NCBI RefSeq assembly: GCF_002843385.1
Contig: NZ_MVDE01000011.1
Location: 1 to 64,000 of the forward strand
DNA: 64,000 nt
Source: Labilibaculum manganireducens
GTDB taxonomy: Bacteria; Bacteroidota; Bacteroidia; Bacteroidales; Marinifilaceae
Reading direction: 5' to 3'
In this document: positions 1-27,273 of the stretch, piece after piece
Layout of the letters: every line of letters begins with the position of its first letter
Numbering within the stretch: the first letter of the stretch is position 1
Made by a program: the position numbers and the translations under genes
Notes under the pieces: model-generated
Databases searched by the model: none
Told to the model about the DNA's origin: nothing
The model's input: only the letters and a program-made list of their open reading frames with translations

Positions 1-29
1 ATCAATTACTAATGGATAGATTTTTAATT

Positions 30-52: not shown

Positions 53-145
53 GAAGAAAAATAAAGAAAAAGTCAGGCAACTCAATAATTTTGGTTTAAT
101 AGCTGCATAAAACTTAACGAACTATTGTTATTTAAGGTGTTGATT

Positions 146-760: not shown

Positions 761-761
761 A

Positions 762-1724: not shown

Positions 1725-1775
1725 GCTTAAGTTATTAAGTGTTGCAATTTGTCTTTATTAAAATTTCAGAAAAAA

Positions 1776-1796
1776 AGGGTATAATTATTATACCCT
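1776..1796 (-). terminator. intrinsic terminator inside the cytochrome cluster
   Basis: Read on the minus strand, a perfect 10-bp inverted repeat (AGGGTATAAT and its complement around one base) is followed by six T. It sits just after the mono-haem cytochrome gene and before the seven-haem gene, so it should lower expression of the two distal genes relative to the three proximal ones. Confidence 0.75.
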
Positions 1797-1816
1797 CTTA
1801 ATTGCACGAATTTCGA

Positions 1817-2221
1817 TTATTTTTTAAATGTACGCATGTAGTTTACAAGTGCCCATCTTTCTTTTTTACTAGGAATTTTAGTCTCGTAGTTAGGCATCTC
1901 ATCTCTTCCGAAGATAGTTTTGTACATGATCTCACCATCAGATTGACCTTGGAACTCAGCACCTGAAAAATCGCCAGGGAATGTTTTTAGACGTGCCGCT
2001 TTTGGTCCATCTCCTAATCCTGCATTACCATGACATGAACGACAATGCTTCATGTAAACCATTTTTCCTGTGTTCACACTAGCTTTATCATTAGCCAATG
2101 GGTTTTCCATGCTTTTATATTCTGCAGGCACTTTCCAGGCTTCAGCTTTTTTCTGTTGTGCGGTAAATGCAAATCCAACAACCGCAATTGCGATAAGGAT
2201 AAAAAATTTCATTTTTTTCAT
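1817..2221 (-). CDS. class I mono-haem cytochrome c
   Basis: 134 residues with a signal peptide (MKKMKFFILIAIAVVGFAFTA). One haem motif, CRSCHGNAGLGDGP, is followed by a distal Met in the segment GRDEMPNYETKIP. The C-terminal helix (ERWALVNYMRTFKK) is typical of soluble class I cytochromes c. It is a periplasmic electron shuttle, probably carrying electrons between the membrane cytochromes of this cluster and an oxidase or reductase elsewhere. It lies 30 bp downstream of the beta-barrel gene in the same direction and is followed by a strong terminator. Confidence 0.85.
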   Translation of the reverse strand: MKKMKFFILIAIAVVGFAFTAQQKKAEAWKVPAEYKSMENPLANDKASVNTGKMVYMKHCRSCHGNAGLGDGPKAARLKTFPGDFSGAEFQGQSDGEIMYKTIFGRDEMPNYETKIPSKKERWALVNYMRTFKK

Positions 2222-2251
2222 AATTAATTTCTTTTAATTAAGGAGAATGAA

Positions 2252-3166
2252 CTAGAATCTTACTAAGATATTGAACCCTACAAGAAAGTCGCCGTCTCCA
2301 ATTTTATTTTTATTGTATAAAATGTTCCTTTGCGGAGTAATTCCCTCATAGTTCGACATAAACACCTGGAACACATGAGTACTAGTACCAATTTCCATAC
2401 CAAAAGTTAAGTTGGCTTCAGGATCGGTTTGATCTGAATTGGTAAATTCTCTCATATCATCAATGTTTAAAGGCTGATCATATTCAAAAAACACAGACAT
2501 TGAAGGTGTAACTTTAGCTCTGCCAGAAAGGGTAATTGCTACCTTATCGTGTTCAACCAAAGAATCAGTTTTATTAAAATGAGTAAAACTAGGAGCTAAT
2601 TGCAACGAGATATTCTCATTAAATTTGTGTGCTACTATTAACTGAGAAAAATATCCCAATCTATCCGAGAATGCATAGTCATTACCAAAAACAACTTTAT
2701 CTTGAGAATTAATAGATAGATTTCCGTATAATGCTACAGAAACTGGAATAGAATTGGATTCGGTTTGTGTAAAAATTCTATATTTTCCATGGAATTCCTG
2801 CAATTTATAGTCCTTAGTATATCCGTAGCCCAACATGAATTTTTCTGTAATACCATAGTTTACCCCCATGCGAATGTTTGAGGAAGCATAAATACCAAAA
2901 ACGTCTTCCAATCCATTCTCTACTAATCCGAAACGGTGTTGAATATGTAATTCAAATTCGCCGGCGAATGGAGTTACTGTAGTTTGAGTTTCTCCAAGAA
3001 GTCCAGACTCAAAAGTACCGGTAACAGGATCGTTTGCAAATTCATCTTCCTGAGCAAAGCAGTTTTGTGAAGCACTCAGTACGACAGCAAAAAACAAGAA
3101 GAATGGGAACATCCATGAAAAAGTCATTTTCATAAATTTTTGAATTGAATATTTAGATCTTATCAT
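2252..3166 (-). CDS. DUF5777-like outer-membrane beta-barrel protein
   Basis: 304 residues. A hydrophobic leader ends near ASQNCFAQ (about residue 39). After it come alternating amphipathic strands with many aromatic ends (HIQHRFG, FMLGYGYTKDY, GYFSQLIVAHKF) and a C-terminal ...GFNILVRF typical of an outer-membrane barrel. The length and the setting between cytochrome genes fit the DUF5777 family as I know it; the name rests on recognition, not a search. Its function is not established. Its place between a cytochrome lipoprotein and soluble cytochrome c suggests a porin or structural partner for extracytoplasmic electron transfer. Confidence 0.65.
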   Translation of the reverse strand: MIRSKYSIQKFMKMTFSWMFPFFLFFAVVLSASQNCFAQEDEFANDPVTGTFESGLLGETQTTVTPFAGEFELHIQHRFGLVENGLEDVFGIYASSNIRMGVNYGITEKFMLGYGYTKDYKLQEFHGKYRIFTQTESNSIPVSVALYGNLSINSQDKVVFGNDYAFSDRLGYFSQLIVAHKFNENISLQLAPSFTHFNKTDSLVEHDKVAITLSGRAKVTPSMSVFFEYDQPLNIDDMREFTNSDQTDPEANLTFGMEIGTSTHVFQVFMSNYEGITPQRNILYNKNKIGDGDFLVGFNILVRF

Positions 3167-3177
3167 AGTGTATAGTT

Positions 3178-3549
3178 TTAATTGTCGTTAGCACCTCGGG
3201 TTATCCACTCAAGAATTAATTGTTTTTCAGTTGCTGAAGCTCGGGTACTGTGAGATCCTGATTGTAATTTTGTATACAATTCGCTGGAGCCTGGAAGATC
3301 AACATTGATATAACCTCCGTTTGTTAATGCATTAAATGCATTGGATGCTCTTAAATCCGGATTAACTCCACCGTCATGACAGTTGATACAATTAGAAGTG
3401 AATATGGGCACGATATCCGCACTAAACGAGATTTCCTGATCTGGTGGGATTACGATTTTATCCACTTGAATGGTATCGTATTCGCACGAAACAAAACACA
3501 GAGTTGTTAGGAAAACCAGTAAAAGACTTACTAAGTTGTTCTTTTGCAT
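3178..3549 (-). CDS. cytochrome c-like lipoprotein
   Basis: 123 residues beginning with a lipoprotein signal whose lipobox ends in FVSC (Cys22). One haem-binding CINCH motif lies in FTSNCINCHDGGVNPDLR, resembling the planctomycete-type cytochrome C domain in which a short SxxCxxCH segment is followed by a Leu-rich stretch. It is the first gene of the minus-strand cytochrome operon, 11 bp before the barrel gene. It is probably anchored in the outer membrane or periplasmic face as an electron-transfer partner of the barrel protein. Confidence 0.7.
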   Translation of the reverse strand: MQKNNLVSLLLVFLTTLCFVSCEYDTIQVDKIVIPPDQEISFSADIVPIFTSNCINCHDGGVNPDLRASNAFNALTNGGYINVDLPGSSELYTKLQSGSHSTRASATEKQLILEWITRGANDN

Positions 3550-3886
3550 AGTATTGAGATTTTAAATTTAAGTACTAATTAGTGATTAAAGAGATTAAAC
3601 CATTTACACTAAAGATAAATATTTGCCTTTACCGCAATAGGTTTGATACACCGAGATTTATTTTATGAAAAAAAGGAATTTGTCTAATACAAATCGACAT
3701 TTATCAGTCTTTTACTAGGCTTATCTCAGTCTTTTTTTTATATTTAATAGTTGCTAGAAAAAAAAACAAATTTTCTGTAGCTGTTGCAAAGCAATTTTTA
3801 TTTGAAATTCACTATTTGTTTTTGGGAAATTTTCTGATAGATTTGATAACTAACTACTAATTTGTACCCTATATCTCTAAACTACT
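3550..3886. promoter_or_regulatory. divergent control region between cytochrome operon and Fnr-like regulator
   Basis: 337 bp without a gene, AT-rich with several A and T runs. It must hold the promoters of both the minus-strand cytochrome operon and the plus-strand regulator. I saw no exact TAnnTTTG box; CTAATTTG near 3857-3864 is one base off. No clear palindromic FNR box was found by eye. Confidence 0.4.
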
Positions 3887-4591
3887 ATGGCTAAATTTTC
3901 AAAATCGGATAATTGCAAAAATTGCCTCGATTGCAATATGCGAATACCGATGTTAAGTACTCTTTCCCGCCCCGAACTAATTGAATTGAATGAGAATAGA
4001 TTTGAAGTAAAGTTTAAGGCTGGTGAAACAATCTTTAAACAAGGTACCTCTGCAACTCATCTATTAATTTTAACAACAGGTTTGGCAAAATTATATGTGG
4101 AAGGTGTTCAGGATAAACAGTTGATAATTAGAATCATTAAGCCTTGGGAAATTATTGGGCAGGCATCTTTGTATTTTGATAACAGACATCATTATTCAAT
4201 TGCAGCACTTGATAATACCACAGCTTGTTTTATAGAAATAAGTGCTTTTAAAAAAGCAATTCAGACAAATCCTCTCTTTGCCGAGGAATTCATTAAGAAT
4301 TGCACTCAAAAAGGAATTTTTTCCTTTGAAAAAATGGTGAGTTTGTCACAAAAGCAGATGCATGGCCGCATAGCCGACGGACTTATTTATCTTTCTGGTA
4401 AAGTGTATGAAAATCTGAACTTTGATTTGCATCTTTCAAGACAAGATGTTGCGGATCTTACCGGTATGTCGAAGGATAGTGCGATTAGAATTCTAAAAGA
4501 ATTTCATAATGAAGGCATTATTGAACTGGATGGCAGAAAACTGAAAATATTAAATTACGGACAACTGGAGCGAATTAGCGAAACAGGTTGA
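3887..4591 (+). CDS. Crp/Fnr-family transcription regulator with FNR-like cysteines
   Basis: 234 residues: a cyclic-nucleotide-binding-like beta-roll (about 30-140), a long dimer helix, and a C-terminal winged HTH (recognition region about 184-205, LSRQDVADLTGMSKDSAIRIL). The N-terminus carries Cys10, Cys13 and Cys16, and a further Cys114 sits in TTACFIEIS at about the place of Cys122 of E. coli FNR. That four-cysteine layout suggests an oxygen- or NO-sensitive Fe-S cluster; this is inference, since the C-x2-C-x2-C spacing differs from FNR's C-x2-C-x5-C. It is divergent from the cytochrome operon, which it probably controls according to oxygen or redox state. Confidence 0.85.
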   Translation: MAKFSKSDNCKNCLDCNMRIPMLSTLSRPELIELNENRFEVKFKAGETIFKQGTSATHLLILTTGLAKLYVEGVQDKQLIIRIIKPWEIIGQASLYFDNRHHYSIAALDNTTACFIEISAFKKAIQTNPLFAEEFIKNCTQKGIFSFEKMVSLSQKQMHGRIADGLIYLSGKVYENLNFDLHLSRQDVADLTGMSKDSAIRILKEFHNEGIIELDGRKLKILNYGQLERISETG

Positions 4592-4635: not shown

Positions 4636-5609
4636 ACAAGAAGTTCATCAAGATTTCGTTCGATTACTTTTCGATTCAGATTTTTTCCAATTATTACAAT
4701 CTTACTTTCCTTTATCTCATCTTTTTCCCATGTTCTTCCAACGGTTGCTTGTATTTGAGTATGTACAGATTGTAGTATAATTCGTTTGTCAACACCTTCC
4801 AGATATAGAATTCCTTTAATTCGGTAGATACTTTCCTGATTAAATTTCAGAAACGCATCCAGCCACATCCCTAATTTCATTTGATCCATTGGAATTGAAG
4901 AGGTGTAGCACATGTTTTCAATTCCATGCGATATTTTATTTGGGGAACTAGCGTTTGCTTCAAGTCCTAAAACAAATTGGTAAACCTTTGCAGGATCATA
5001 AGAGAAGGAATCAAGTAAATTTTTGTTTACCGGTTTCGCAAATACACATTCTTCAATTCGGGCAAACTTGTTAATCCTTTCAACCTCTGTTTTAACCGCA
5101 TTTGTCTTTTCACGACCAGCTATATCCGTTTTATTTATTAATATTTGGTCCGATATTGCAATTTGTTTGGTTAGAACAACTTCCTTCTCTAGAATATCAG
5201 ATGCATTTTCGGCATCAACCAGACAAATTACGGCGTCCAATTCAAATTCTTTTTTTATGAACGGATCAGTAATAAATGAAGCTAAAATACTACCTGGATC
5301 CGCAATTCCGGTAGTTTCTATAAGAAGGTGATTGAATTGATGATTTGATTGAATCAGATTTTTTAAAACGACATACAATTCATCATTCAAACTGCAGCAA
5401 ATACAACCATTACTTAATTCAAAAATGTTTTCGTTTTTAACGTTGGCAACTAATTCAGAATCAATGTTTACTTCACCAAATTCATTTTCGATAACTGCGA
5501 ATTTTTTATTAGGATAGCTCGATATTAAGTGATTAAGCAGACTGGTTTTTCCTGCGCCTAAGAAACCGGTAATTACAGTAACTGGAATTTTTGACATAAT
5601 CATATTCAT
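4629..5609 (-). CDS. CobW/YjiA-family GTPase (metal chaperone type)
   Basis: 326 residues. Walker A is GFLGAGKT (15-22), the metal-binding CICC motif is at 69-72 in NGCICCSLNDEL, the base-recognition motif is NKTD, and a C-terminal CobW_C-like domain follows about residue 230. These G3E GTPases insert or traffic metals (zinc, cobalt, nitrile-hydratase metal). The metal here cannot be read from sequence. Three in-frame ATGs lie within five codons (5609, 5603, 5597), and the start is uncertain among them. The frame begins directly after the nitroreductase stop, so the two form a transcription unit; a flavin enzyme next to a metal chaperone is suggestive but not diagnostic. Confidence 0.85.
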   Translation of the reverse strand: MNMIMSKIPVTVITGFLGAGKTSLLNHLISSYPNKKFAVIENEFGEVNIDSELVANVKNENIFELSNGCICCSLNDELYVVLKNLIQSNHQFNHLLIETTGIADPGSILASFITDPFIKKEFELDAVICLVDAENASDILEKEVVLTKQIAISDQILINKTDIAGREKTNAVKTEVERINKFARIEECVFAKPVNKNLLDSFSYDPAKVYQFVLGLEANASSPNKISHGIENMCYTSSIPMDQMKLGMWLDAFLKFNQESIYRIKGILYLEGVDKRIILQSVHTQIQATVGRTWEKDEIKESKIVIIGKNLNRKVIERNLDELLVQ

Positions 5610-6125
5610 TTAAAACTTTTCCCAATGCACAATTTCATCCAATGATTTCCTTGTCTTTTGAGGAGGTATCCTGTCCGATGGATATCCTAAAGATAAAATT
5701 GCAACCGGTTCAATATAATCAGGCAAATTGAAAAAATCTATGCATTTTTGAATGTGAAAATTGCAGATCCAACAAGTCCCCAATCCAAGTTCTGTTGCCT
5801 GAAGAGTCATATGATCGATGGCAATCGCAGCATCAATATCACAATGATCTTTACCATCCTCACTTCGTTTCCATGATTGGGTGTGATCACCGCAAATTAC
5901 GATGTAAACAGGAGCTTCTTTAAACCATTCACGATGATAAATTTCGGAGAATTTTTTGTGATTCTCAGGCTCCCGAACTACAATAAAATGCCAGGGTTGA
6001 TTGTTCACTGCTGAAGGTGCAATTTGGCCGGCCTCTAATATTTTAATCAATTTTTCTTGTTCTATCTCTTTCGATTGATAGGAGCGAACTGAATATCTTT
6101 TCTGGCTAAGTTCTTTAAAATTCAT
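5610..6125 (-). CDS. nitroreductase-family FMN oxidoreductase
   Basis: About 171 residues from the ATG at 6125. The frame stays open to a TTG at 6164, but the family N-terminus MNFKELSQKRYSVRSY begins at the ATG. Recognisable features are the RYSVRSY phosphate/FMN contact, the segment APSAVNNQPWHFIVV, and ATELGLGTCWICNF in the second half, as in compact NfsA/FRP-like nitroreductases. It reduces nitro-, quinone- or related compounds with NAD(P)H. It is upstream of and contiguous with the CobW-type GTPase gene. Confidence 0.85.
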   Translation of the reverse strand: MNFKELSQKRYSVRSYQSKEIEQEKLIKILEAGQIAPSAVNNQPWHFIVVREPENHKKFSEIYHREWFKEAPVYIVICGDHTQSWKRSEDGKDHCDIDAAIAIDHMTLQATELGLGTCWICNFHIQKCIDFFNLPDYIEPVAILSLGYPSDRIPPQKTRKSLDEIVHWEKF

Positions 6126-6228
6126 TTCTTCATTTATTAATGCCTGCTCTAATACTTTGTACAAAATTGTGAAATTAATAAGACATGATGCTCATGATTT
6201 TTCATTTTGTTTAGCATGTTGGTTTTGT

Positions 6229-6260
6229 TCTGTGCCATTCACAACATTTTTGTACCTTTG
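6229..6260 (+). promoter_or_regulatory. Bacteroidota-type promoter of the MFS gene
   Basis: The -7 box TACCTTTG (6253-6260) matches TAnnTTTG exactly. Twenty bases upstream is TCTG (6229-6232), one base off the TTTG -33 element. The start codon follows 27 bases later, behind AGAGGAG. Confidence 0.6.
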
Positions 6261-6287
6261 GCAATCATTTTTTAGAGGAGAATATAG

Positions 6288-7430
6288 ATGACGAAAGAGC
6301 TAAAGAAAAATATCATGTTCCAATATCTGATGTTATTGGTAATAGCTGCCACGGCGGGACATCAGGGGTGGAGAACCTTATTTAATAATTTCGCAGTAGA
6401 GGAAGTTGGCATTAATGGATTTCAGGTTGGTGTCATTCAGTCTGTGAGAGAAATTCCCGGCTTTTTGGCTCTTTTAGTTGTGTATTTATTGTTGGTAATT
6501 AAAGAACATCGTTTGTCGGCATTATCAGTTTTAATTGTTGGTTTGGGAGTTGCTTTAACTGGTTTTTTCCCTTCGTTTTTAGGCTTAATAATTACAACAG
6601 TTATCATGTCTGTGGGATTTCATTATTTCGAGACAACAAATAAATCCCTGACACTGCAGTATTTTACGATTGAGCAGGCTCCTGTTGTATTTGCTAAGCA
6701 AAGAAGTTGGTCAGCCATAGCAAATATTAGTATGGGTGCTTTTGTTTATGGAATTGCACATTTCATTTCAATAGAAGCGAGCTTTATCTTAATTGGTGCC
6801 GTTGTTTTTTGTCTTGGCATTTGGGCATTTTTCTGGGATCCGGCAGATAAAAATATTCCTCTTCAAAATAAGGGGATGGTTGTAAGAAAAAGATACTGGC
6901 TTTTTTATATTTTGAATTTTTTGAGTGGCGCCCGTCGTCAGATTTTTGTTGTGTTTGCTGTTTTTATGCTGGTGCAGAAGTATCATTATACAGTTCAGGA
7001 TGTAGCAATTCTATTTGTAATAAATAACGTTATAGCCTATTTTGTTTCTCCCATGATTGCAAAAGGAATCAATCGATACGGAGAACGAAAAATGTTATCA
7101 CTGGAATATATTGGATTGGTTTTCGTCTTTTTAGGATATGCTTATATTGAAAATGCTCTTATTGTAGCCGGATTATATATTTTGGATCATATCTTTTTCG
7201 GTTTTTCGATGGGAATCAATACGTATTTCCATAAAACAGGCGATGCAAAAGATATTGCGCCATCAATGGCGGTGGGTTTTACAATTAACCACATATCTGC
7301 TGTTGTTATACCAGTTGTTGGAGGTTTGTTATGGATGGTAAACTGGAGAATTCCGTTTGTATTTGGTGCCATTCTTTGTCTTGTATCACTTGGATTTGTT
7401 CAAAAAATAAGAACAAATACTGAAATTTAA
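6288..7430 (+). CDS. MFS transporter
   Basis: 380 residues, nearly all hydrophobic, with 11-12 predicted membrane helices. The intracellular loop around 195-205 is basic (NKGMVVRKRYW) and separates the two six-helix halves. The start codon is preceded by a good ribosome site (AGAGGAG). The substrate is unknown: no family signature beyond major facilitator topology is evident. It is followed 2 bp later by a hypothetical gene and then a YchJ-like gene, so the three are probably one operon. Confidence 0.8.
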   Translation: MTKELKKNIMFQYLMLLVIAATAGHQGWRTLFNNFAVEEVGINGFQVGVIQSVREIPGFLALLVVYLLLVIKEHRLSALSVLIVGLGVALTGFFPSFLGLIITTVIMSVGFHYFETTNKSLTLQYFTIEQAPVVFAKQRSWSAIANISMGAFVYGIAHFISIEASFILIGAVVFCLGIWAFFWDPADKNIPLQNKGMVVRKRYWLFYILNFLSGARRQIFVVFAVFMLVQKYHYTVQDVAILFVINNVIAYFVSPMIAKGINRYGERKMLSLEYIGLVFVFLGYAYIENALIVAGLYILDHIFFGFSMGINTYFHKTGDAKDIAPSMAVGFTINHISAVVIPVVGGLLWMVNWRIPFVFGAILCLVSLGFVQKIRTNTEI

Positions 7431-7432
7431 TT

Positions 7433-8284
7433 ATGAAGGAAAAAGAAAAAATATATCAGTCTCTTATTGAGATGTACAATCATGGGATTCAATCGAAAGA
7501 CCCAAAAAAAATTCGTGAATTCTTAAATGACAATTCTGTTGATCTTCTAAAAGAAGAAGCTCGGTTTTATTTGGAAATTCTTCAATTACGTGCGGCTTCA
7601 TTTTCTCTGTTTGGAGAATTAAATGAGGCCGGAGAAGAGTATCGTAAGGGATATTTATCTTGTTCGACAAGTGGCAAGTGGGTGTATGGTCTGAATTGGG
7701 CTTTGCAGTTTATGGCAGAATTTTCGTTTAAGCGCGGGAAGGAGAAAATTCACGAATCAATGAACAATGGAATTAAAGTTCTGGATCAGGCTTTAATTGA
7801 TTTGCCGTTCGATAAATACCGCGACTTTTATTATTTGTGTCTTTCGAATGTGAAAGCATTTATGCTTTTAAATTCTGATAGAAGAGAAGAAGGATTAGGA
7901 GTTTATACCGATTGTAAATTTATACCGGTTCCTATTCCTGAATACAATGATAAGGAATCTTTACAGGTTCTTTTTGCTCATTTCACAAAGGGGATTGCTG
8001 TTGCCATTGAGTTGAAAAACTATGATTTATTAATGAATCTGATGAAGGTGATCTCCATCGATGATCAAACCTTACAATCTGAAGGGAGTTTGTTCCGGAT
8101 TTTCTACGAGACTCTGGTAAGTGCCTTCGATATGCGTGCTGAATTTATTACGGAGTTTAATGCGATGTTTAAAATAAAGGATGTTTTAGAAAGTACAACT
8201 CCTCATTTTGCGAGGTTTTTAGCTTTAATTGGAGAACAGGATCTGGATAAATTAGACCTGTTTTTTCAGGAATCTTATAGTTAG
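7433..8284 (+). CDS. conserved-type hypothetical, all-helical protein
   Basis: 283 residues, no signal peptide or membrane segment. It is rich in charged amphipathic helices and looks like degenerate TPR or helical-repeat architecture (for example LKEEARFYLEILQLRAASFSLFGELNEAGEEY). I do not recognise the family. It begins 2 bp after the MFS stop and ends 6 bp before the YchJ-like start, so it is translationally linked to both. A cytoplasmic partner role is all that can be suggested. Confidence 0.65.
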   Translation: MKEKEKIYQSLIEMYNHGIQSKDPKKIREFLNDNSVDLLKEEARFYLEILQLRAASFSLFGELNEAGEEYRKGYLSCSTSGKWVYGLNWALQFMAEFSFKRGKEKIHESMNNGIKVLDQALIDLPFDKYRDFYYLCLSNVKAFMLLNSDRREEGLGVYTDCKFIPVPIPEYNDKESLQVLFAHFTKGIAVAIELKNYDLLMNLMKVISIDDQTLQSEGSLFRIFYETLVSAFDMRAEFITEFNAMFKIKDVLESTTPHFARFLALIGEQDLDKLDLFFQESYS

Positions 8285-8290
8285 CAACCG

Positions 8291-8779
8291 ATGGAGAATA
8301 ATTGTTTTTGCGGCAATAATACAGCATACAAAGAATGTTGTGGTGCAATTCATTCAGGCAAACGAAAAGCGGTTACGGCAGAAGATTTAATGCGTAGCAG
8401 GTATTCTGCTTTTGTTCTTGCCGATATTGATTACATTTTAGCTACTTATTCATCCGAAACATGTCCTTCCGATCAGAAAGAAGAGATTTTAGAATGGGCT
8501 CAGTCGGTTGAATGGCTTGGATTGAAAGTGATTCACACCGAGAAAGGAAAAGAATTTGATTCGGTTGGATGGGTAGAATTTCAGGCCGGTTTTATAGAAA
8601 AAGAACAGAAGCAAATTATGCATGAAAAATCCTTTTTTAATAAGGAGAATGGAGTTTGGGTTTATGTTTCCGGGGAATATCCAAAGCTTAACAAGGAGGA
8701 AAAAGAGAATCTACCAAATAGAAATGATCTGTGTTTTTGTGGAAGTGGCAAAAAGTTTAAAAAGTGTTGCTTAAAATAA
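8291..8779 (+). CDS. YchJ-like protein with two SEC-C zinc motifs
   Basis: 162 residues. SEC-C motifs stand at both ends: CFCGNNTAYKECC at about 5-17 and CFCGSGKKFKKCC near the C-terminus. Between them is the YchJ core (DLMRSRYSAFVLADIDYILATY ... WVEFQAGF). This layout is that of the UPF0225/YchJ family. SEC-C motifs bind zinc and occur in SecA and many accessory proteins; the molecular role of YchJ is not known. Last gene of the MFS-headed unit, followed by a strong terminator. Confidence 0.85.
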   Translation: MENNCFCGNNTAYKECCGAIHSGKRKAVTAEDLMRSRYSAFVLADIDYILATYSSETCPSDQKEEILEWAQSVEWLGLKVIHTEKGKEFDSVGWVEFQAGFIEKEQKQIMHEKSFFNKENGVWVYVSGEYPKLNKEEKENLPNRNDLCFCGSGKKFKKCCLK

Positions 8780-8792
8780 CAATGAAATAATA

Positions 8793-8822
8793 AAATGGCT
8801 GTTTTCAATAAAACAGCCATTT
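8793..8822. terminator. bidirectional terminator
   Basis: A perfect 13-bp inverted repeat (AAATGGCTGTTTT and its complement, loop CAAT) between the convergent YchJ-like and ACT-like genes. Confidence 0.9.
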
Positions 8823-8838
8823 CCATTAAAATATATTT

Positions 8839-9498
8839 CTAATTCTTTCCCATATTCTTCAGTACAGAAAAAGTTTTGTCGATATCAGTATCATTTACAA
8901 CAAGAGTAAATTCATTTGTGGTTGAGATTACTTCACGAATGTTGATGCCGGCCCATGCGATATTCTTAAGTATAAAATAGTAAAAGCCAAGCTGTTGACT
9001 GTTTGTTGAAGGTAATTTTAATGTAACAGATGATAAATCTTCACTTTTACTTACGAGCATTTCAGTACTAAATACTTGTTCTACTTTTTCTCTTAAAGTA
9101 TTGCTTACAACTAAATTAGATTCGAAAACCCCCTGAACCATGGTGTAGAAAAATTCCTGATTAGGACCAATAGATTTTAACAATTCTGTGTGTTTTTCAA
9201 TCAGGGTATTTGAGTTTTTATAGGTAAAATCGACTAATTGTGAGCGAACAATAATATCACCTACATTGGTAATAACTTCCTTTAAACCTGGATTGATTTT
9301 CACTTCCAGACTTGGAGCTAACCTGTTCAGGGCCATGATTATTGCACCGAGTTTAACCGGCTTTTTTACGCTCTGTTCAACCTGATCCTGAATTTTACGT
9401 GCCAATGACGAAATGTTTATTAAACCATCTACCAAAGCTTCTGCCAAAAAGGGTTGTGAGCTAACTATTTTTTCTACAACTTGTGGAATTGTTATCAT
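8839..9498 (-). CDS. hypothetical protein with ACT-like C-terminal domain, divergent from dapA
   Basis: About 219 residues from the ATG at 9498 (MITIPQVVEKIV); an in-frame ATG at 9525 would add nine residues, and neither has a clear ribosome site. The first two thirds are helical. The C-terminal part (about 155-219 of this frame: SVTLKLPSTNSQQLGFYYFILKNIAWAGINIREVIST...DKTFSVLKNM) has the beta-alpha-beta pattern of aspartokinase-type ACT domains, including the 'I-A-W-A-G-I-N-I-x-E-V' segment. ACT domains bind amino acids. It stands back to back with dapA of the lysine pathway, so a role in sensing lysine or aspartate-family amino acids is reasonable inference. Confidence 0.65.
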   Translation of the reverse strand: MITIPQVVEKIVSSQPFLAEALVDGLINISSLARKIQDQVEQSVKKPVKLGAIIMALNRLAPSLEVKINPGLKEVITNVGDIIVRSQLVDFTYKNSNTLIEKHTELLKSIGPNQEFFYTMVQGVFESNLVVSNTLREKVEQVFSTEMLVSKSEDLSSVTLKLPSTNSQQLGFYYFILKNIAWAGINIREVISTTNEFTLVVNDTDIDKTFSVLKNMGKN

Positions 9499-9581
9499 GA
9501 ATTGAAGTTTGTGTTGAAAAACCATACAAAGATGTTCAAAAATTAACAGAATGTAGAATTAATGAATAAATTTTCTAAAAA

Positions 9582-9613
9582 TTTCGTTCATTTTATTGTA
9601 GAATCTATATTTG
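9582..9613 (+). promoter_or_regulatory. Bacteroidota-type promoter of dapA
   Basis: TATATTTG (9606-9613) fits TAnnTTTG. TTTC, one base off TTTG, lies 20 bases upstream at 9582-9585. The dapA ATG is 58 bases downstream, behind AAGGAG. Confidence 0.65.
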
Positions 9614-9670
9614 CAGCCGTTAACAAAATCTTGCGGATGTCTGCAAGTAATAATCAAGGAGTATATATAA

Positions 9671-10558
9671 ATGAGAAAAGCTTGGCAAGGATCTATTGTT
9701 GCTATTGTAACACCTTTTAATATTGATGGTAGTATTGATTATACTGCTTTTGATAATTTGATTGATTTTCATTTGAAAAATGAAACTGACGGAATTGTAG
9801 TTTGCGGAACCACTGGGGAAGCTGCCACTCTTACTAAAATGGAGTATGCGGAACTAATTAAACATACAGTTGAAAAGGTGAATAAACGAATTCCGGTAAT
9901 AGCGGGTTCCGGAACAAATTCAACATCCGAAGCAATTGAAAATTCTTGCCTGGCTGAATCTTTGGGTGTTGATGCAATTTTGGTTGTGTCGCCTTATTAC
10001 AACAAACCAACAAGAAAGGGTTTGAAAGATTATTTCTCTCAAATTTCTACAGCGGTTACTGTTCCAATTATTCTTTATAATGTACCTGGAAGAACCGCCG
10101 GCAACATTCCTGCTGATTTGGTTGTGGAATTAGCAACGGAATTTGAAAATATCGTGGGTATCAAAGAGGCATCCGGGAACTTAGAGCAAATGGCTTGTAT
10201 CTTGAGAGATAAACCATCTGATTTTATGGTTTTTTCGGGCGATGATGCTTTGGCTTTTCAAGCTGTTTGTATGGGAGCAGATGGAGTTATTTCAGTTGTT
10301 GCCAATTTAATCCCTAAGGAATTTCATAATTTAATGTTGGCAGCCTCTAAGGGTGATCTGGCTAAATCAAAAGAAATTTATTTTAAATATCTGAGATTAA
10401 TTCAATTGTGTTTTATCGAGTCGAACCCAATACCTGTGAAAACAGGTTTGGCAATAATGAATAAGTTAAGCGAAGAGTTTAGATCTCCTATGTCTGTAAT
10501 GATGGATGAAAATAGAATTTTATTGGTAAATGAAATAACCAAATTGAAAATGATTTAA
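9671..10558 (+). CDS. dapA: 4-hydroxy-tetrahydrodipicolinate synthase
   Basis: 295 residues, the usual length. It condenses pyruvate with aspartate semialdehyde in lysine and diaminopimelate synthesis (cytoplasm). Visible signatures: GTTGEAATL (46-54), YYNKPTRKGL (109-118) with the family tyrosine, YNVPGRTA (136-143) with the catalytic Tyr and the substrate-binding Arg, and GIKEASGN with Schiff-base Lys165. A good ribosome site (AAGGAG) precedes the ATG. A single-gene unit closed by a terminator at 10585-10605. Confidence 0.97.
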   Translation: MRKAWQGSIVAIVTPFNIDGSIDYTAFDNLIDFHLKNETDGIVVCGTTGEAATLTKMEYAELIKHTVEKVNKRIPVIAGSGTNSTSEAIENSCLAESLGVDAILVVSPYYNKPTRKGLKDYFSQISTAVTVPIILYNVPGRTAGNIPADLVVELATEFENIVGIKEASGNLEQMACILRDKPSDFMVFSGDDALAFQAVCMGADGVISVVANLIPKEFHNLMLAASKGDLAKSKEIYFKYLRLIQLCFIESNPIPVKTGLAIMNKLSEEFRSPMSVMMDENRILLVNEITKLKMI

Positions 10559-10965
10559 ATAGTTAAAGCTATTAATTGAATATAGAGCCACTTTTTAAGT
10601 GGCTCTTTTGTTTTGGAAAATTATCATTTTTTTGGTGCTGTATTTTACTGTGATGTAGTGGAATAAGCTTATCTGGAACTGAGCTTCGACTTTCGTTTGA
10701 TAAGGAAAAACAGCTTTGTTTTTAAAAATTACAATGATAAATTGAAACCAATCAGATGATAATAAGTACAAGAGCTTAGAATCACAGTGTTTTTCAATAT
10801 AGAGAAGATTGCTTAAATTTAAATTCATTTGGCAGGAATGCTTAATGAAAGCGATTATATATTTAAAGAATTTGTTGATAAAATGCTCTGATTATTGCAG
10901 CAAAAGTTGTCATTTTATTAATAAATTTAGATGTTATAAATTGATTTAAAGGAAGTTTGCCAAAT
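10559..10965. other. intergenic stretch after dapA
   Basis: About 400 bp. It begins with the dapA terminator and then holds AT-rich sequence without a convincing gene; the short open frame on the minus strand here has no start signal or recognisable product. A ribosome site (AAAGGAAG, 10948-10955) near the end serves the next gene. Confidence 0.5.
10585..10605 (+). terminator. dapA terminator
   Basis: GAGCCACTT and its complement with a 3-nt loop, followed by TTTTG TTTT. Confidence 0.9.
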
Positions 10966-11748
10966 ATGAATAAAGATTTACTCTTTGCCTTAATTCAAAA
11001 TCCCTACTTAATTCCTGGTATTTATAATTATTGTGATGGTTGGTGTGAAAGATGCAGTTTTACCGGTAATTGTCTTAATTATAAAATGATGGAAGAGGGT
11101 GTGCCTGATTTAGATGTTTCTAATACCGATGCTTCTTCAGCAATGGATAATCTGGATGAGATGTTTCAGTTAAGTATGGAGTTGCTGAAGCAAGCAGCAA
11201 AGGATTTAGGAATGGAAATGCCTGAACAGGATGAAGATTTTGATGCTGAAGAAGAAGAGAAAAAAGATGACTTGATATTTAAAGGCCAAATAATGAGACA
11301 GGCCGATAAATATTCTGAATTGGTAGACCAATGGTTTGCCGAATTTGAAGCACTCCTTTTTGTAGGAAGTGTTAGTCTCAAAGAGTTACTGGACTATAAG
11401 GATGAAGAGGAGATGAGTGAAATTGAAAAAACAGTTTTTAATTCTTATGAGATAATTCGCTGGTATCAGTTTATTATTCCGAGCAAACTCTTTCGCTCAC
11501 TTAGAAGTAAGACAAATACAGAAGAAACAGGGAATGAATTTTACAAACATGACAGTATTGCATCTGGTAAAGTAGCATTGCTGTCCATTGATGAATCGAT
11601 TAAGGCCTGGACTTGTTTTATGCAGAAATTTCCTGAAACAGAGGATCGAATGCTGCCATTGTTACTGATACTTTCAGGTTTACGGACTATAGTCGAGAAG
11701 GTATTCCCCGAATCAAGAGATTTTATAAGACCAGGTTTCGATATCTAA
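10966..11748 (+). CDS. hypothetical protein with N-terminal four-Cys cluster
   Basis: 260 residues from the ATG at 10966 (ten bases after GGAAG); an in-frame TTG at 10957 is too close to that ribosome site. The N-terminus contains CDGWCERCSFTGNC, a C-x3-C-x2-C-x5-C cluster suited to zinc or an Fe-S centre. A very acidic linker (DEDFDAEEEEKKDD) follows, then a helical C-terminal domain. No membrane segment or signal. I do not recognise a named family. It stands alone and is closed by the terminator at 11851-11877. Confidence 0.65.
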   Translation: MNKDLLFALIQNPYLIPGIYNYCDGWCERCSFTGNCLNYKMMEEGVPDLDVSNTDASSAMDNLDEMFQLSMELLKQAAKDLGMEMPEQDEDFDAEEEEKKDDLIFKGQIMRQADKYSELVDQWFAEFEALLFVGSVSLKELLDYKDEEEMSEIEKTVFNSYEIIRWYQFIIPSKLFRSLRSKTNTEETGNEFYKHDSIASGKVALLSIDESIKAWTCFMQKFPETEDRMLPLLLILSGLRTIVEKVFPESRDFIRPGFDI

Positions 11749-12079
11749 TCAATCCGCAATTGATAGCATCAGATTTTTAAAGCGTTGCATCATATTCAAA
11801 TGAATTTTAGAAGATAGTTTTTATACCAAATAAGAGAGTATATAACGCAAAAAAAGTCGGTAACCAGCCGACTTTTTTTCTACTCACTTTAAACCTTAAT
11901 CTACTATATGAAAAAACTACTTTTTGTTCTTTTGTACATTACAAATGTATGCATGAATCAAGTTAATTGGTCTAAACAAGTGTTAAAGAAGATTAAATCT
12001 TTAATTTAACCTTATTTTAAGATTAAAAACCATTGGATTATTAGTAGAGATTGTTGGATTTTAAACCAGCATTTAAAGT
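11749..12079. other. intergenic stretch with terminator and small inverted repeat
   Basis: About 330 bp holding the terminator at 11851-11877 and, at 11935-11949, a 6-bp inverted repeat (TACATT-ACA-AATGTA) upstream of the large membrane protein gene. That repeat could be an operator but is short enough to be chance. Confidence 0.4.
11851..11877 (+). terminator. intrinsic terminator
   Basis: AAAAAGTCGG and its complement with a 7-nt loop; the A and T runs could also serve the other strand. Confidence 0.85.
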
Positions 12080-14212
12080 TTGTTTGTTAAATTTGTTGAA
12101 ATTCTAAAATTATTAAAATTGAATATCACCATAGTTACCGAATACTCATTATGGTGGGTATTGCCCTTTGCTTTAGTTTCTTTATTACTTATTGTTTTGG
12201 TTTATTTTTTCAAAAAACCATACCATAAGGATCTTTCTCTGCCCAAAATCTACATTTTAGCTTTTTTGCGGGGGCTTTCCATTTTATTACTTCTGATACT
12301 ACTGTTGGAACCAAAAATTAAATATGCTTCAGAAAAAATTGAAAAACCATTATTAGTTTTTGCTCAGGACAATTCAAAGTCTCTTAAATTGAATAATGAT
12401 TCTTTATTTTATTTGAATGAATACCCTTCTGAAATAGAAAAATTTCTTGAGACTTTGAATTCTGAATTTGAGATTAAGAAAATTAGTTTTGGAAATAAAG
12501 TAGAGGAACTATCTAATTATAATTATGCCGAGGCGAATACAAATTTTTCAGATTTGTTTCAATTTTTGAAAAACAATTATGGAAATTTAAATAATGTACA
12601 GGTTCTTCTTGCCAGTGATGGTCTTTACAATAAAGGCGGTAATCCCAGATATGATGTACAAGACTTGAATTTTCCGATTCACACATTACAATTGGGGGAC
12701 ACGGCACGCATTGAGGATGTTTCAGTTATATCAGTTAAAACAAATAAATTAGGTTTTATAAAAAGTAAATTACCCGTTAGAATTGGCGTTAAAGCAACTA
12801 ATTTAGATTCGGAATCAATACGATTGAAAATTTACAATGGTTCGGCGAAATTGATTGATGATGAATTTCAGATTAATAACAATTCATTCTTTATCGAAAA
12901 AGATTTTTTTATTACTCCGGAAAAAGCAGGTTTACAGAAGTTTAGGGTAGAAGTAATTGCAACAGGAAAGGAACATTCCAAGAGTAATAATCAATACGAG
13001 TTTGTGGTTGATGTATTTGATAATCAGAGAAAAATAGCAATTTGTTTTGATAAATATCATCCTGACATAGCAGCTATTCAATCGGCGATTAATGAAAATT
13101 TAAATTTTACTGTTGAGTTAATTAATCTTGCACAGAAACAAGCTGATCTTGAGAAATACAATCTGGTAGTTCTGTATCAAATTCCATCTCATCTTAATTC
13201 ATATTCAGGTTTTTTGCAGCAAATTCAACAAAAGGAAATTCCTGTTCTAATGGTTGTTGGAGGCAATTCGGATATAGAAGCTTTAAATAAGTTGAATTTG
13301 GGTGTGAATTTGTTGAGAAATGAAGGTTTATTCTCCGAATCATCTTTTGTTGGAGATGAAACTTTTAACTTGTTTGATTTAAAGAGATCAAAGATGGAAA
13401 TTTTTGAGAAAATGCCGCCCTTGTTATCTCCTTTAGTGAATTGTGAATTTACTTCTGAACATCATATTGTTGGATATCAGAGTATTAAATCAGTACGAAC
13501 GGAAGAACCTCAAATTGTTTTTTCATATACTGATAAACAGAAAATTGCGTGGATTTTTGGTGAGGGAATCTGGCGATGGAAATTGCACTTGTCTCGAATG
13601 AATGATTCTCCTGAAGTATTTTTTGATTTGATCAATAAAATGGTGCAGTATTTATCTTTGAAGATTAATCGTAACCAACTGGTGGTTAACTACCCAAAAA
13701 ATATCTCCGAAGGGGACGAAATTGTATTTGATACTGAGATATACAATAAAAGTTACGAGTTGGTTAATCAGGCGAATTTGGATTTTACCTTGATAAATCA
13801 AGCGGGTAAATCTTTCAACTATAATTTTGAAAAACGCTCAGATAAATACCAATTAAGAATAGGTTCTTTGCCAAAAGGCAATTATTCATTTGTTGTTAAA
13901 ACCCAGGATAGTGAAAATGTTTTGGAGCAAAAGGGACAGTTTATTGTTAGCTTAAACAGTAATGAAGCTAAAAATTTACAGGCCGATCATAAAATACTTT
14001 CGCAAATTTCAAGTTTAACTGGAGGTAAGGTGTTTAAACCTGACGAACAAGCGGAAATGAGAACCAGCATTAAAGAAAATGAGCATTCAAAATCTATTTT
14101 ATCAGAGGAAACGAAATATGGTAATTTAGCTGAGATGCTATTTGTATTAATTATAATTATCATATTAATGATATTGGAATGGTTTTTGAGAAAGTATTGG
14201 TTAGGGATTTAA
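12080..14212 (+). CDS. large VWA/BatA-like membrane protein
   Basis: Up to 710 residues. Two N-terminal membrane helices (about 25-45 and 60-80) are followed by an extracytoplasmic region, a Rossmann-like stretch typical of von Willebrand A-like folds (LLVFAQDNSKSL ... VQVLLASDGLYNKGGNP), beta-rich Ig-like parts, and one C-terminal membrane helix (about 688-706, LAEMLFVLIIIIILMILEWF). This matches a class of Bacteroidota membrane proteins with BatA-like N-termini; role unknown. Oddly, there is no ATG before the first helix. Translation must use a TTG (12080 or 12119) or another codon, and no strong ribosome site is visible. It is followed by a lipoprotein gene 52 bp downstream in the same direction. 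Confidence 0.7.
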   Translation: MFVKFVEILKLLKLNITIVTEYSLWWVLPFALVSLLLIVLVYFFKKPYHKDLSLPKIYILAFLRGLSILLLLILLLEPKIKYASEKIEKPLLVFAQDNSKSLKLNNDSLFYLNEYPSEIEKFLETLNSEFEIKKISFGNKVEELSNYNYAEANTNFSDLFQFLKNNYGNLNNVQVLLASDGLYNKGGNPRYDVQDLNFPIHTLQLGDTARIEDVSVISVKTNKLGFIKSKLPVRIGVKATNLDSESIRLKIYNGSAKLIDDEFQINNNSFFIEKDFFITPEKAGLQKFRVEVIATGKEHSKSNNQYEFVVDVFDNQRKIAICFDKYHPDIAAIQSAINENLNFTVELINLAQKQADLEKYNLVVLYQIPSHLNSYSGFLQQIQQKEIPVLMVVGGNSDIEALNKLNLGVNLLRNEGLFSESSFVGDETFNLFDLKRSKMEIFEKMPPLLSPLVNCEFTSEHHIVGYQSIKSVRTEEPQIVFSYTDKQKIAWIFGEGIWRWKLHLSRMNDSPEVFFDLINKMVQYLSLKINRNQLVVNYPKNISEGDEIVFDTEIYNKSYELVNQANLDFTLINQAGKSFNYNFEKRSDKYQLRIGSLPKGNYSFVVKTQDSENVLEQKGQFIVSLNSNEAKNLQADHKILSQISSLTGGKVFKPDEQAEMRTSIKENEHSKSILSEETKYGNLAEMLFVLIIIIILMILEWFLRKYWLGI

Positions 14213-24421: not shown

Positions 24422-24499
24422 TTTTTTGATAGCATAATTTAAGATTCCAGAAATAGTAATTTTTAATTATATATATTTATGTTTTAAAAATTAAGATAA

Positions 24500-27166
24500 A
24501 TGAATACAGTAAATATACAGATTGCGCTAAATAGGATTGAAGAAGCTAGAAAATACGATACAAGCCATTTAAATTTAAGTGGTTTACAGCTCACAGAAAT
24601 TCCGACGGATATTTCGGATATGAACTTTTTAGATTCAATTGATTTAAGTTTTAATAAATTTGTGGAATGCTCAGATATGATTTCAAAATTATATTCCTTA
24701 TTAAGTTTGAATATTAGCAATAATTATTTACAAGATATTTGCTTTGATTTTTATAAAGAGTATTCAATTAACGAAATTGATATTTCATCTAATTTATTTT
24801 ACAGAATCCCTTATAATCTTTTACAATTTGATGAAAATAAGATTTGTATTTATTTTGATAATAACCCATTTTTAGATTCTATCCCAATTGAAATCTCCAC
24901 AGAAGGAAATTTATCATATATCGAGTTTTACCTTGATTCTTTAAAGTCCCAGGATAAGACAAAAAGATTATTTGAAACAAAACTTCTAATTGTTGGTAAG
25001 GGGAGTGTAGGTAAAACAACTCTTGTAAAAACTTTGAATGATCCTGAATATAAAGTGAAAATAGGAGAGGAAAATACAACGGAAGGAATAAATATAAATA
25101 GATTATATGAAACAGTATATTTTCCTGCCCATAAACCTTACTATTCTTTTTTTAATGATAGAGAGAATCTGTATGAATATGATGAAGGTTTAGGAAATGA
25201 ACAGGATAAAGAGTCATATATATATATGGGGGATATTTCTTCTTATGGTGAAGGGTTTTCAGATTATGTTGATATATTGAAAGAGCCATATTTAGAAGGA
25301 GAGATATTTGTAGAAAAAGATATAAAAATAAATGTATGGGACTTTGGAGGACAAGAAATATTGTATTCTACTCATCAGTTCTTTTTGACGCAAAGATCCT
25401 TATACATATTTGTTTGGGAACCTCGTGCTGATAATGAGGAAGAAAGTTTTGAATACTGGTTGAGTATTATTCAGCGTCTTAGTAAAAACTGCCCAGTTAT
25501 TATAGTTATGAACAAAGCAGATATACGAATTAAAAGTATTGATGAAAAAAATTATCTAGATATATTTAAGAATATCGTCGGCTTTTTTAATATTTCTTGT
25601 TTTACAAAAGAGGGGATACAAGAACTTAAACGACAGATACGAGAAACTATTTCAAAATTGCCACACTTAGGTGATAGGTTGCCACAAACATGGGAGAATA
25701 TTAGAGAAGAATTAGCAAGAAAAGAATTAGATTACATCACTTTTGATGATTTTAAAGAGATTTGTGGATTTAATGAAATTGAGAAAGTAAATCATCTAAG
25801 TGGGTATTTAAATGATTTAGGAGATATAATTTATTTCAAAGATGATATTATGCTAAATAATTTAGTAATTATAAATCCACATTGGTTGACGAAGGCTATA
25901 TATCAACTCATTCATTCATTGCAAGTACAGAAAAACAATGGACTGTTTGAAGCTAATAATTTATCCAAATATTTGAATGATAAACAATATCCCAAAGGGA
26001 AACATTATGAACTTTTATCATTAATGGAAAAATTTGAAATTTGTTTTAAAGTGATTGGTTCAAGTAGTCTTTATGTTATTCCAACATTACTCAAAGCGCA
26101 ATCCCCTTCTATTGAAGAACTTGATAGGTTTAGGATATCAGAAGCGTTAAGATATAAAGTAAGGTATAACTTTTTACCTTCTGGTTTAATTGAAAGATTA
26201 ATATGTCGTTTGAATAATCATTTAGAGGATAGTCTTTTTTGGAAATATGGAGCCATTTTTAATTCTGAAACATGCAGAGCGTTAGTTGAATTAAATAAAA
26301 TCAAGAAGTCTATAAATTTATATATTATAGGTGAAATGAAATCACATTTATATACAATTATTACTCATGAGCTTAATCAGATTCATATAGATTTAAAGCT
26401 AGAAAAGATTGATTATAAAGAATTGTATGCATGTAGTTGTGTTGATTGTTTAGAAAGTAATCATCCATACATGTTCGAAAAAGAGCTTCTTGCGAAGTAT
26501 ATAATTAAGGGAAGGAAATTAATTGATTGTCGAAATAGTTTAGAGCAAGTTGATATTGAAGAATTAATGATCGGGTATAAATCGGTAAAGGCCAAAGAAA
26601 GCCTTATTAGAGATTTTGTGTCAGCGTCTTCTCAATTGCAAACAAGATTAGATTTATTAAAAGGTTTTAATGAAAATCAAATTAACACATATTTCCAAGA
26701 TCTAATGAGGCAGTATCTTTCTAGTAAAAAGCTAACACTGAATGAGCAATCCCTTAAAGGTAGATCTGAATCAGGTAAAAATCAAGGGGAATTAGATATT
26801 GCAGTTGAAACAATTGAAGGTAATACAATCTCGTTTTTTGAAGGTTTTATATTAGCAGGATTAAATACAAAAATAATTGAAACGCATTTAAATAAGTCCA
26901 TGTTAAATTATGACTCGAATGGGTTAAACGAAAAATATGTTGGCATATATAGTCGAGCGAAGAATTTTTCGTCTTTAAGTGCAAAGTATAAAAATTATAT
27001 AGATGGAATACAAATAGAAAATGTTGAAATTGAAAGCTCAGAAGATATATCTAATATTTATGTGAACGGATCTGAAATAAGAGTAATTAGAACCAAATAT
27101 AGAAGAAATAAAATTCAGCTTAACTTATATCATTTACTTATAAATATTTATACAGGAGATTATTAG
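24500..27166 (+). CDS. Roco protein: LRR-Roc GTPase-COR with nuclease-like C-terminus
   Basis: 888 residues. Domains in order: leucine-rich repeats (about 20-145; HLNLSGLQLTEIP, SIDLSFNKF, EIDISSNLF); Roc GTPase (160-390) with P-loop GKGSVGKT (166-173), DFGGQ (281-285), NKAD (338-341) and an unusual Tyr/acid-rich insert of about 70 residues after switch I; COR domain (about 395-690) ending in the CSCVDC cluster (645-650); then about 170 residues with a candidate PD-(D/E)XK pattern: E749, GELDIAVE with D766, and FFEGF with E781. The usual catalytic Lys is Phe783, so activity is uncertain. It is a lone gene, strikingly AT- and ATA-rich beside its neighbours, between two housekeeping blocks, which suggests horizontal gain. 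Roco proteins are dimeric G proteins acting as regulated switches. A sensor-nuclease defence role is inference. Confidence 0.85.
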   Translation: MNTVNIQIALNRIEEARKYDTSHLNLSGLQLTEIPTDISDMNFLDSIDLSFNKFVECSDMISKLYSLLSLNISNNYLQDICFDFYKEYSINEIDISSNLFYRIPYNLLQFDENKICIYFDNNPFLDSIPIEISTEGNLSYIEFYLDSLKSQDKTKRLFETKLLIVGKGSVGKTTLVKTLNDPEYKVKIGEENTTEGININRLYETVYFPAHKPYYSFFNDRENLYEYDEGLGNEQDKESYIYMGDISSYGEGFSDYVDILKEPYLEGEIFVEKDIKINVWDFGGQEILYSTHQFFLTQRSLYIFVWEPRADNEEESFEYWLSIIQRLSKNCPVIIVMNKADIRIKSIDEKNYLDIFKNIVGFFNISCFTKEGIQELKRQIRETISKLPHLGDRLPQTWENIREELARKELDYITFDDFKEICGFNEIEKVNHLSGYLNDLGDIIYFKDDIMLNNLVIINPHWLTKAIYQLIHSLQVQKNNGLFEANNLSKYLNDKQYPKGKHYELLSLMEKFEICFKVIGSSSLYVIPTLLKAQSPSIEELDRFRISEALRYKVRYNFLPSGLIERLICRLNNHLEDSLFWKYGAIFNSETCRALVELNKIKKSINLYIIGEMKSHLYTIITHELNQIHIDLKLEKIDYKELYACSCVDCLESNHPYMFEKELLAKYIIKGRKLIDCRNSLEQVDIEELMIGYKSVKAKESLIRDFVSASSQLQTRLDLLKGFNENQINTYFQDLMRQYLSSKKLTLNEQSLKGRSESGKNQGELDIAVETIEGNTISFFEGFILAGLNTKIIETHLNKSMLNYDSNGLNEKYVGIYSRAKNFSSLSAKYKNYIDGIQIENVEIESSEDISNIYVNGSEIRVIRTKYRRNKIQLNLYHLLINIYTGDY

Positions 27167-27273
27167 ATTCTGCAACTTTATGTTCTATAATTACTTATAT
27201 AGTTATATGATATATTATTGTGAAAATTGTTTTAAATTAGAGTTTGCAGAAAGTCAAAGCATATAAAATTGCA

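Follow-up and report, generated by a model that had tools for sequence, protein, structure and literature searches.

Within a 64,000-nucleotide stretch of DNA from Labilibaculum manganireducens (NCBI RefSeq assembly GCF_002843385.1, contig NZ_MVDE01000011.1, positions 1 to 64,000, forward strand; hereafter, the window), positions 24500–27166 of the plus strand hold an open reading frame (ORF) of 888 amino acids with an ATG start. It encodes a Roco protein, that is, leucine-rich repeats (LRRs), a Roc GTPase domain and a COR region, followed by a C-terminal module that we also find in Lamassu, in the anti-phage hotspot of P2 prophages and in a CRISPR-associated transposon (CAST). We consider it rather likely that the gene is a single-protein immune switch, similar to nucleotide-binding LRR (NLR) proteins, with a nuclease-like effector, acquired as lone cargo; judging from this combination of parts, the protein probably works as a bacterial immune receptor. 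This reading builds on the domain order, the invariant residues, the predicted topology, the clean insertion, the spread of the module over defence platforms, and the exchange of effectors.

The ORF is genuine, chance being excluded by homology. Pfam identified COR-A (residues 395–531, 1.6e-37), COR-B (548–690, 1.8e-24) and Roc (2.2e-21) in the protein, and the Roc GTPase domain precedes COR, as Roco membership requires. The phmmer search against PDB retrieved 4wnr, 6hlu, 8r4b and 3dpu at 2.6e-52 to 1.8e-46, 8r4b presumably being the Roco protein of Chlorobium tepidum; the LRR-Roc-COR core is common with C. tepidum Roco 6hlu (also 3dpu), the match to 6hlu (2.1e-51) covering residues 273–641 only and thus excluding the module. 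The full-length model matched 6hlu as well (Foldseek, 4.3e-36), its quality (pLDDT 70, pTM 0.49) being too weak for the packing of the module on COR. The LRR_8 family scored below the Pfam cut-off (17.6 vs. 27 bits), and residues 22–141 match LRR proteins of PDB. The features preceding the module are as follows.

24500..27166, plus strand: LRR-Roc-COR-C-terminal-domain gene (Pfam, PDB phmmer, Foldseek)
24563..24922, plus strand: degenerate leucine-rich repeats, residues ~22–141, a putative sensor (PDB LRR matches; Foldseek matches to SHOC2 and other LRR proteins)
24995..25018, plus strand: P-loop GKGSVGKT, residues 166–173 (G166, G171, K172 and T173 in 13/13 aligned proteins)
25112..25306, plus strand: insertion of ~65 residues within Roc, after switch I (T194) and before DFGGQ (alignment A7)
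25340..25354, plus strand: G3 motif DFGGQ, residues 281–285 (13/13)
25511..25522, plus strand: G4 motif NKAD, residues 338–341 (K339 and D341 invariant, N338 at least 90%)
25682..26569, plus strand: COR-A (395–531) and COR-B (548–690), by Pfam; a dimerisation region by analogy
26432..26530, plus strand: CxCx2C...C (C645, C647, C650, C677) at the end of COR-B (all four Cys in 13/13)

A reading made from the sequence alone (the sequence-only reading) had described an LRR-Roc-COR protein with all GTPase motifs, and this description is borne out by Pfam, the PDB matches, and alignment A7, which comprises 13 full-length proteins sharing the C-terminus, 10 of them from four Bacteroidales/Bacteroidetes metagenome-assembled genomes (MAGs) and so not independent. 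The motifs G1, G3 and G4 that characterize Roco GTPases are intact: G166-x4-GKT173, T194 and D281-FGGQ285 are invariant in all 13 rows, as are K339 and D341 of N338-K339-A-D341, with N338 retained in at least 90%. The CxCxxC cluster noticed earlier is likewise invariant (13/13) and extends to a fourth residue, C645-x-C647-x2-C650 plus C677; from its sequence, it is a probable zinc knuckle. The Roc insertion, with pLDDT below 50 at residues 206–271, is found also in the Larkinella (L063) and Chryseobacterium (L065) proteins and is absent in the other 10 rows.

The module following COR has no family in Pfam, and no convincing one in PHROGs. Its boundaries and main residues are listed here.

26597..27163, plus strand: C-terminal module, residues 700–888 (189 residues), of PD-(D/E)XK-like topology (AlphaFold2; 37 distinct homologous domains)
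26672..26674, plus strand: E725, first acidic residue, helix A (37/37)
26795..26797, plus strand: D766 of GELD, strand 2 (37/37)
26840..26842, plus strand: E781 of FFEGF, strand 3 (37/37)
26885..26896, plus strand: H796-x2-K799, helix B, with K799 a candidate migrated lysine (H 37/37, K 36/37)

The distribution of the module is patchy. Searches by tblastn and with profiles found it in the order (12 of 393 genomes), the phylum (six of 395) and the family (four of 56), counts that include the genome itself and a few marginal matches (at 6.0e-4 in the order and 9.5e-4 in the phylum); eight plasmid records and one phage record have it as well. Two of the other three family carriers have it in proteins of ~1350 residues that are not Roco. 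The window sequence alone, used as a query for the module in genome contigs, gave zero matches, and alignments of close subsets did better; in viral contigs, alignments A2 and A4 gave zero matches, and A3 gave one (L066). After removal of duplicates, fragments and rejected rows, 37 distinct domains were left, near-copies remaining among them: 18 in Roc-COR proteins (the window protein included), five in proteins of the ~1260-residue type, four in partners of ATPases, three in proteins of ~1290–1350 residues, two in LRR-coiled-coil proteins, one in LmuA and four in others; of these last, L064 is close to the end of its contig.

Seven residues, E725, D766, E781, H796, Y804, Y830 and H878, are invariant in all 37 domains; the rows were picked by similarity, so this conservation is partly selected. 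K799 is lysine in 36 of 37 (Arg in L045), and Q750 is glutamine in 35 of 37. The conservation of D766 and E781 expected from the sequence-only reading is thus complete. E749, which it had put first in the order of a nuclease core, is not the helix Glu but a conserved acid that ends the first strand (D in 34, E in two including the window copy, and Q in one); the invariant helix Glu is E725. Its observation of Phe at the position of the catalytic Lys, namely, F783, two residues after E781, extends to the whole family, with Phe or Leu in 35 of 37 domains, Thr and Met once each, and Lys never.

The systems carrying the module speak for the conflict or defence role that had been proposed. In locus L037, the module ends the 565-residue LmuA (PADLOC, 2.4e-49) of a complete Lamassu operon (5374–13049), in which LmuC (1.6e-66), LmuB (3.3e-163) and LmuA are directly followed by a Tiamat-like TmtA (3.9e-275); the module alone still matches the LmuA model (6.5e-5). 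The switch of Lamassu is an SMC-like ATPase complex, not a GTPase; beside the window gene, a Pfam scan of the two nearest neighbours found no SMC- or Lmu-like match. In P2-EC5, the module ends the 333-residue ORF333 behind ORF555, an AAA_15 ATPase nearest to NsnB of PADLOC (1.1e-49), and here sensor and switch are a separate ATPase, unlike in the single-protein window gene. At megablast sensitivity, the ORF555/ORF333 pair occurs in four of 5426 Escherichia coli genomes. In both genomes inspected, it has the replication endonuclease gene on one side and the portal gene on the other; this is the gpA–gpQ site of P2 prophages, a hotspot of anti-phage systems according to PMC9122126. A related ATPase–partner pair is found on a Vibrio plasmid. 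On plasmid NZ_CP101696.1 of Photobacterium toruni, a type I-F CAST holds a module-bearing Roco gene (L030:3721-6459) that starts one base behind a helix-turn-helix gene and lies in the tniB–tniQ interval, perhaps as defence or regulatory cargo inside the transposon core.

A neighbourhood survey covered 104 ORFs around 20 module genes. PADLOC, at 1e-10, was applied to 79 of them, all but the 25 around L066, L032, L033, L027 and L029; the counts are raw ones, not set against a background. Among the best 25 of 156 families, mad2 had three members, NsnB, AriA, LmuB, PtuA, AbiLi and GajA two each, and a type IIG restriction enzyme, TmtA and PDC-S05 one each, with related ATPase models overlapping in these counts. 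Homologues of the module thus have a defence context in Lamassu, the P2 hotspot and the CAST; no defence island was seen around the window gene itself. Judging from these homologues, the module is mobile and spread over unrelated defence platforms.

The slot behind COR is occupied by different domains in related proteins. A search of 295 genomes from the order with Roc-COR of the window protein (residues 150–690), at 1e-20 and with at most four candidates scored per genome, gave matches in 21, its own genome included. We compared 29 of the 38 matches besides the window's, several being from the same genomes: eight end in this module, and among the 10 of the other 21 tails that were scanned, four belong to PDDEXK_9 (1e-15, 9.2e-17, 5.9e-15 and 6.8e-19), two to EAD11 and one to TIR_2, with three lacking a clear family. 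The four PDDEXK_9 tails (L106, L109, L120 and L123, from the same order) directly follow COR, as does the module in the window protein, and have the canonical GRxD...ExK signature, with weak profile similarity to the module. Since sibling proteins differ in their tails, Roco switches carry exchangeable C-termini, a canonical domain of the nuclease superfamily among them. In the best tree of the 37 modules, the label Roco changes seven times, at least two of the changes being forced by well-supported branches; on this tree, a history of one fusion and no further change is ruled out, and either gain or loss would fit.

In one MAG with seven full-length Roco-module proteins, the LRRs are less identical than Roc-COR in all 10 pairs with full LRRs, by at least 14 points in nine, and by 80 vs. 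81 in the tenth; the 11 pairs involving two copies with a 44-residue N-terminus show no LRR deficit. Tandem Roco-module genes are seen in L041 (3113–5191 and 5279–7357), with Roc-COR 100% and the module 96% identical; these proteins have only 44 residues before Roc and are nearly devoid of LRRs.

The window gene itself lies in an inserted stretch of low GC content.

24428..27255, no strand assigned: inserted stretch of 2828 bp, with GC content of 0.272 and boundaries set by the two nearest relatives

GC content is 0.376 and 0.364 in the flanks. A close orthologue of the downstream SEC-C gene (E below 1e-140) was found in 11 of the 30 relatives searched; 10 of these loci were compared, one of them cut by a contig end, leaving nine with both flanks, and in all nine the Roco gene is absent, the gap between the aligned flanks being 37, 37, 44, 44, 108, 185, 355, 55 and 106 bp. 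Flank identity to the two nearest relatives is 92–96%. The Roco gene is the sole ORF of at least 80 residues in the stretch; hence no transposase or integrase travels with it. As compared with its relatives, the gene is a recent, precise, lone insertion. This agrees with the lone AT-rich insertion of the sequence-only reading, and the absence in relatives goes against a conserved housekeeping context, as that reading had also required. Its remark that the gene is rich in ATA codons holds against the pooled neighbours (35% of Ile codons vs. 22% over eight genes), but one neighbour equally reaches 35%. In G782, a genome of the same genus, a different Roco protein with the module (L130:290-3058, 33% identical over 634 residues) is encoded on another contig among other neighbours; this suggests that such genes come and go. 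A terminator-like hairpin with a T-run, found by eye, precedes the inserted stretch. Rfam and tRNA scans of the window found nothing.

The most likely mechanism is as follows. A ligand from the invader, or some disturbance of the host, would be sensed by the LRRs. The title of PMC11052575 claims that a bacterial homologue of LRRK2 becomes monomeric under the drive of GTP. By analogy with Chlorobium tepidum Roco, for which this is reported, the Roc-COR part would turn sensing into a GTP-dependent change of dimer state, and this change would license the C-terminal module. We take the homologue of that title to be the C. tepidum protein. The module would act as a metal-dependent nuclease of the PD-(D/E)XK-like type, E725, D766 and E781 being its candidate metal ligands, and K799, together with H796 of the same helix, may stand in for the missing ExK lysine, its conservation being plain and its catalytic role putative. 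Its targets would be nucleic acids of either the invader or the infected cell, and the end result would be the destruction of invader DNA or of that cell; sensing, the direction of the switch, the substrate and the outcome are what we infer.

The nuclease assignment is based on the predicted fold and on the placement of the conserved residues. AlphaFold2 with 15 sequences modelled the module with pLDDT of 84.8 and pTM of 0.84, in the order helix 26–44, strands 46–50, 66–72 and 77–86, helix 91–104 and strand 112–119, residues 53–64 being poorly predicted. The core order of PD-(D/E)XK enzymes is helix-strand-strand-strand-helix-strand, and, as far as secondary-structure order goes, this core is present. 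E725 is at the start of the first core helix, H796 and K799 are in the helix after strand 3, and D766 and E781 provide the Asp in strand 2 and the Glu in strand 3 that are characteristic of the fold. The PD-(D/E)XK core of the sequence-only reading thus stands as regards topology, but statistical confirmation of the fold was obtained neither from Foldseek and BFVD nor from profiles.

A number of observations count against our reading. Foldseek found no match for the module in PDB at E of 0.001 or below; the best restriction enzyme, DrdV (7lo5), ranks 26th among the best 50 of 902 rows (E 0.048, prob 0.96, TM 0.36), below tyrosine phosphatases, and BFVD gave no match at the same threshold among the best 50 of 976. 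Pfam PDDEXK_4 reaches only 0.035 in one of 25 members, a match worth little because unrelated families score equally or better (Mbeg1-like, 0.0036 in two of 25; HisG, 0.02 for the window copy), and the CARF_PDDEXK model of PADLOC matches one P2 copy weakly (0.0017). Profile comparison with the four confirmed PDDEXK_9 tails gave a probability of 1.4% (E 0.038, with 0.65 for the single control). The lysine two residues after Glu is missing, and invariant His and Tyr such as H796, H878, Y804 and Y830 are not standard for the fold. As to the role in defence, the LRRs are weak, PADLOC has no match for the window protein, several of the Pfam-scanned Roco neighbours are plainly housekeeping, and the neighbours of the window gene look housekeeping as well, with no defence island seen around it. 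The phosphatase matches, with TM of ~0.3 and mostly rmsd of 5–13, were set aside as chance. PDB sequence searches with alignments A1 and A4 and with the P2 copy found nothing convincing, a silence that says little because the confirmed PDDEXK_9 set (A8) found nothing either. In the short PDDEXK_9 alignment, E725, D766 and E781 all face acids, and two of these acids are catalytic (D in GRID, E in FEL). On the model, we regard a nuclease as the probable, not the settled, identity of the module, given that the fold and profile tests are not significant.

Could the module belong to a conflict system and be something else than a nuclease, e.g., an enzyme of another kind that depends on metal or on acid/base chemistry, or a domain that binds a ligand, through its invariant E/D/E/H/H/Y set? 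The absence of ExK, the lack of a significant nuclease match in the fold and profile searches, and the His or Tyr nature of four of the seven invariant positions would fit, but the order E, D, E, HxxK and its placement on the helix-strand-strand-strand-helix-strand core, and the canonical PDDEXK_9 that sibling proteins carry in this position, make this unlikely. Still less likely is that the window copy, while keeping the fold, has degenerated into a part of the switch that binds nucleic acid without catalysis. Such decay might be read from F783 at the Lys position, from E749 where 34 of 37 domains have Asp, and from the poor prediction of module residues 53–64; however, the window copy retains E725, D766, E781, H796 and K799, and the ExK lysine is present in 0 of 37 domains, hence its absence is a family trait and not decay. 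The inactivity that the sequence-only reading considered on account of Phe is for the same reason not favoured, with H796 and K799 conserved in the next helix; variants of PD-(D/E)XK with a moved Lys exist.

We consider it very improbable that the protein serves ordinary physiology, such as signalling or development, with no part in conflict. The neighbours of the gene, namely, an RND-efflux-like gene (by eye), a SEC-C protein and a small ORF that matches no Pfam family, could be so explained, and the roles of bacterial Roco proteins are largely unknown. Against it stand the lone insertion missing from 9/9 relatives with both flanks, the patchy distribution, and the presence of the module in Lamassu, P2-hotspot and CAST genes. 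All this taken together, the immune switch with a nuclease-like effector is the reading that we favour.

The class of proteins concerned is not undescribed, as had been suggested. Section 15 of PMC8195603 (presumably Kaur et al., 2021, eLife) predicts LRR-AP-GTPase-COR counter-invader systems with at least 24 kinds of C-terminal domain, and their features, LRR, Roc and COR with an exchangeable C-terminus, are found in the window protein; the occurrence of several paralogues within one genome is a further common point. There too, the counter-invader role is a prediction only. AP-GTPase-COR proteins of ternary systems are mentioned in PMC7159879. The text of section 15 names GT4, TIR, DRHyd, caspase, trypsin, FGS and EADs and not this module, which may be among the 24 kinds; a restriction-endonuclease-like domain on such proteins is named neither in section 15 and further passages of PMC8195603 nor in passages of PMC7159879, figures and source data aside. 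The same principle, in which systems as different as AVAST, Lamassu, Hachiman and DRT have acquired one interchangeable effector, is described in PMC12799240, the effector there being a different nuclease, of the metallo-beta-lactamase (MBL) fold. Among the matches listed from the open-licence literature, none was an experimental report on a Roco defence system. Thus, the LRR-Roc-COR-effector class had already been predicted, and, relative to the parts of the papers cited here, this family of effectors, and the fact that Lamassu and P2 systems have it too, appear to be new.

A broader proposal, to which we would give somewhat less than even chances, is that a hitherto unrecognised plug-in nuclease family with an E...D...E...HxxK site has been taken up by Roco switches, Lamassu, P2 ATPase pairs and large helical proteins, bacterial Roco proteins being a GTP-driven counterpart of NLRs; if so, the ancestral job of LRRK2-type switches would be antiviral. 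Structures of bacterial Roco proteins have been solved, but to our knowledge no function has been established for them. A nuclease-like effector common to Lamassu and P2-hotspot systems would make a defence role directly testable, cutting of nucleic acid could provide a readout for the GTP/dimer cycle of the family, and switches of the LRRK2 type, the family of a human Parkinson's protein, would be linked to innate immunity. An effector family lacking in Pfam may also be used for finding further defence systems.

Several minor observations concern other carriers of the module; family scans covered neither the last-found ones (L127–L132) nor most ORFs of the window. Proteins of the ~1260-residue type ending in the module (L027:3698-7474, L029:2755-6513, L032:2698-6519 and L066:6782-10558; five modules, one a fragment) come from proteobacterial plasmids and one viral contig; the one scanned, L027, has no clear Pfam match, and the gene in L032 sits after a gene with an OLD-like TOPRIM domain. 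In an LRR-coiled-coil protein (L045:8201-10522), EAD11 follows the module (2.4e-5; 24.7 bits, with a cut-off of 26). A ~1350-residue protein ending in the module (L131:4592-8641) adjoins a 1432-residue protein (1–4297), whose start resembles, by eye, a restriction-endonuclease-type effector domain. In the genome of L. manganireducens itself, further Roc-like GTPase matches lie at G000:C25:34626-34985 and G000:C12:48752-50069, L002 being above the cut-off, and L003 and L004 below it, side by side.

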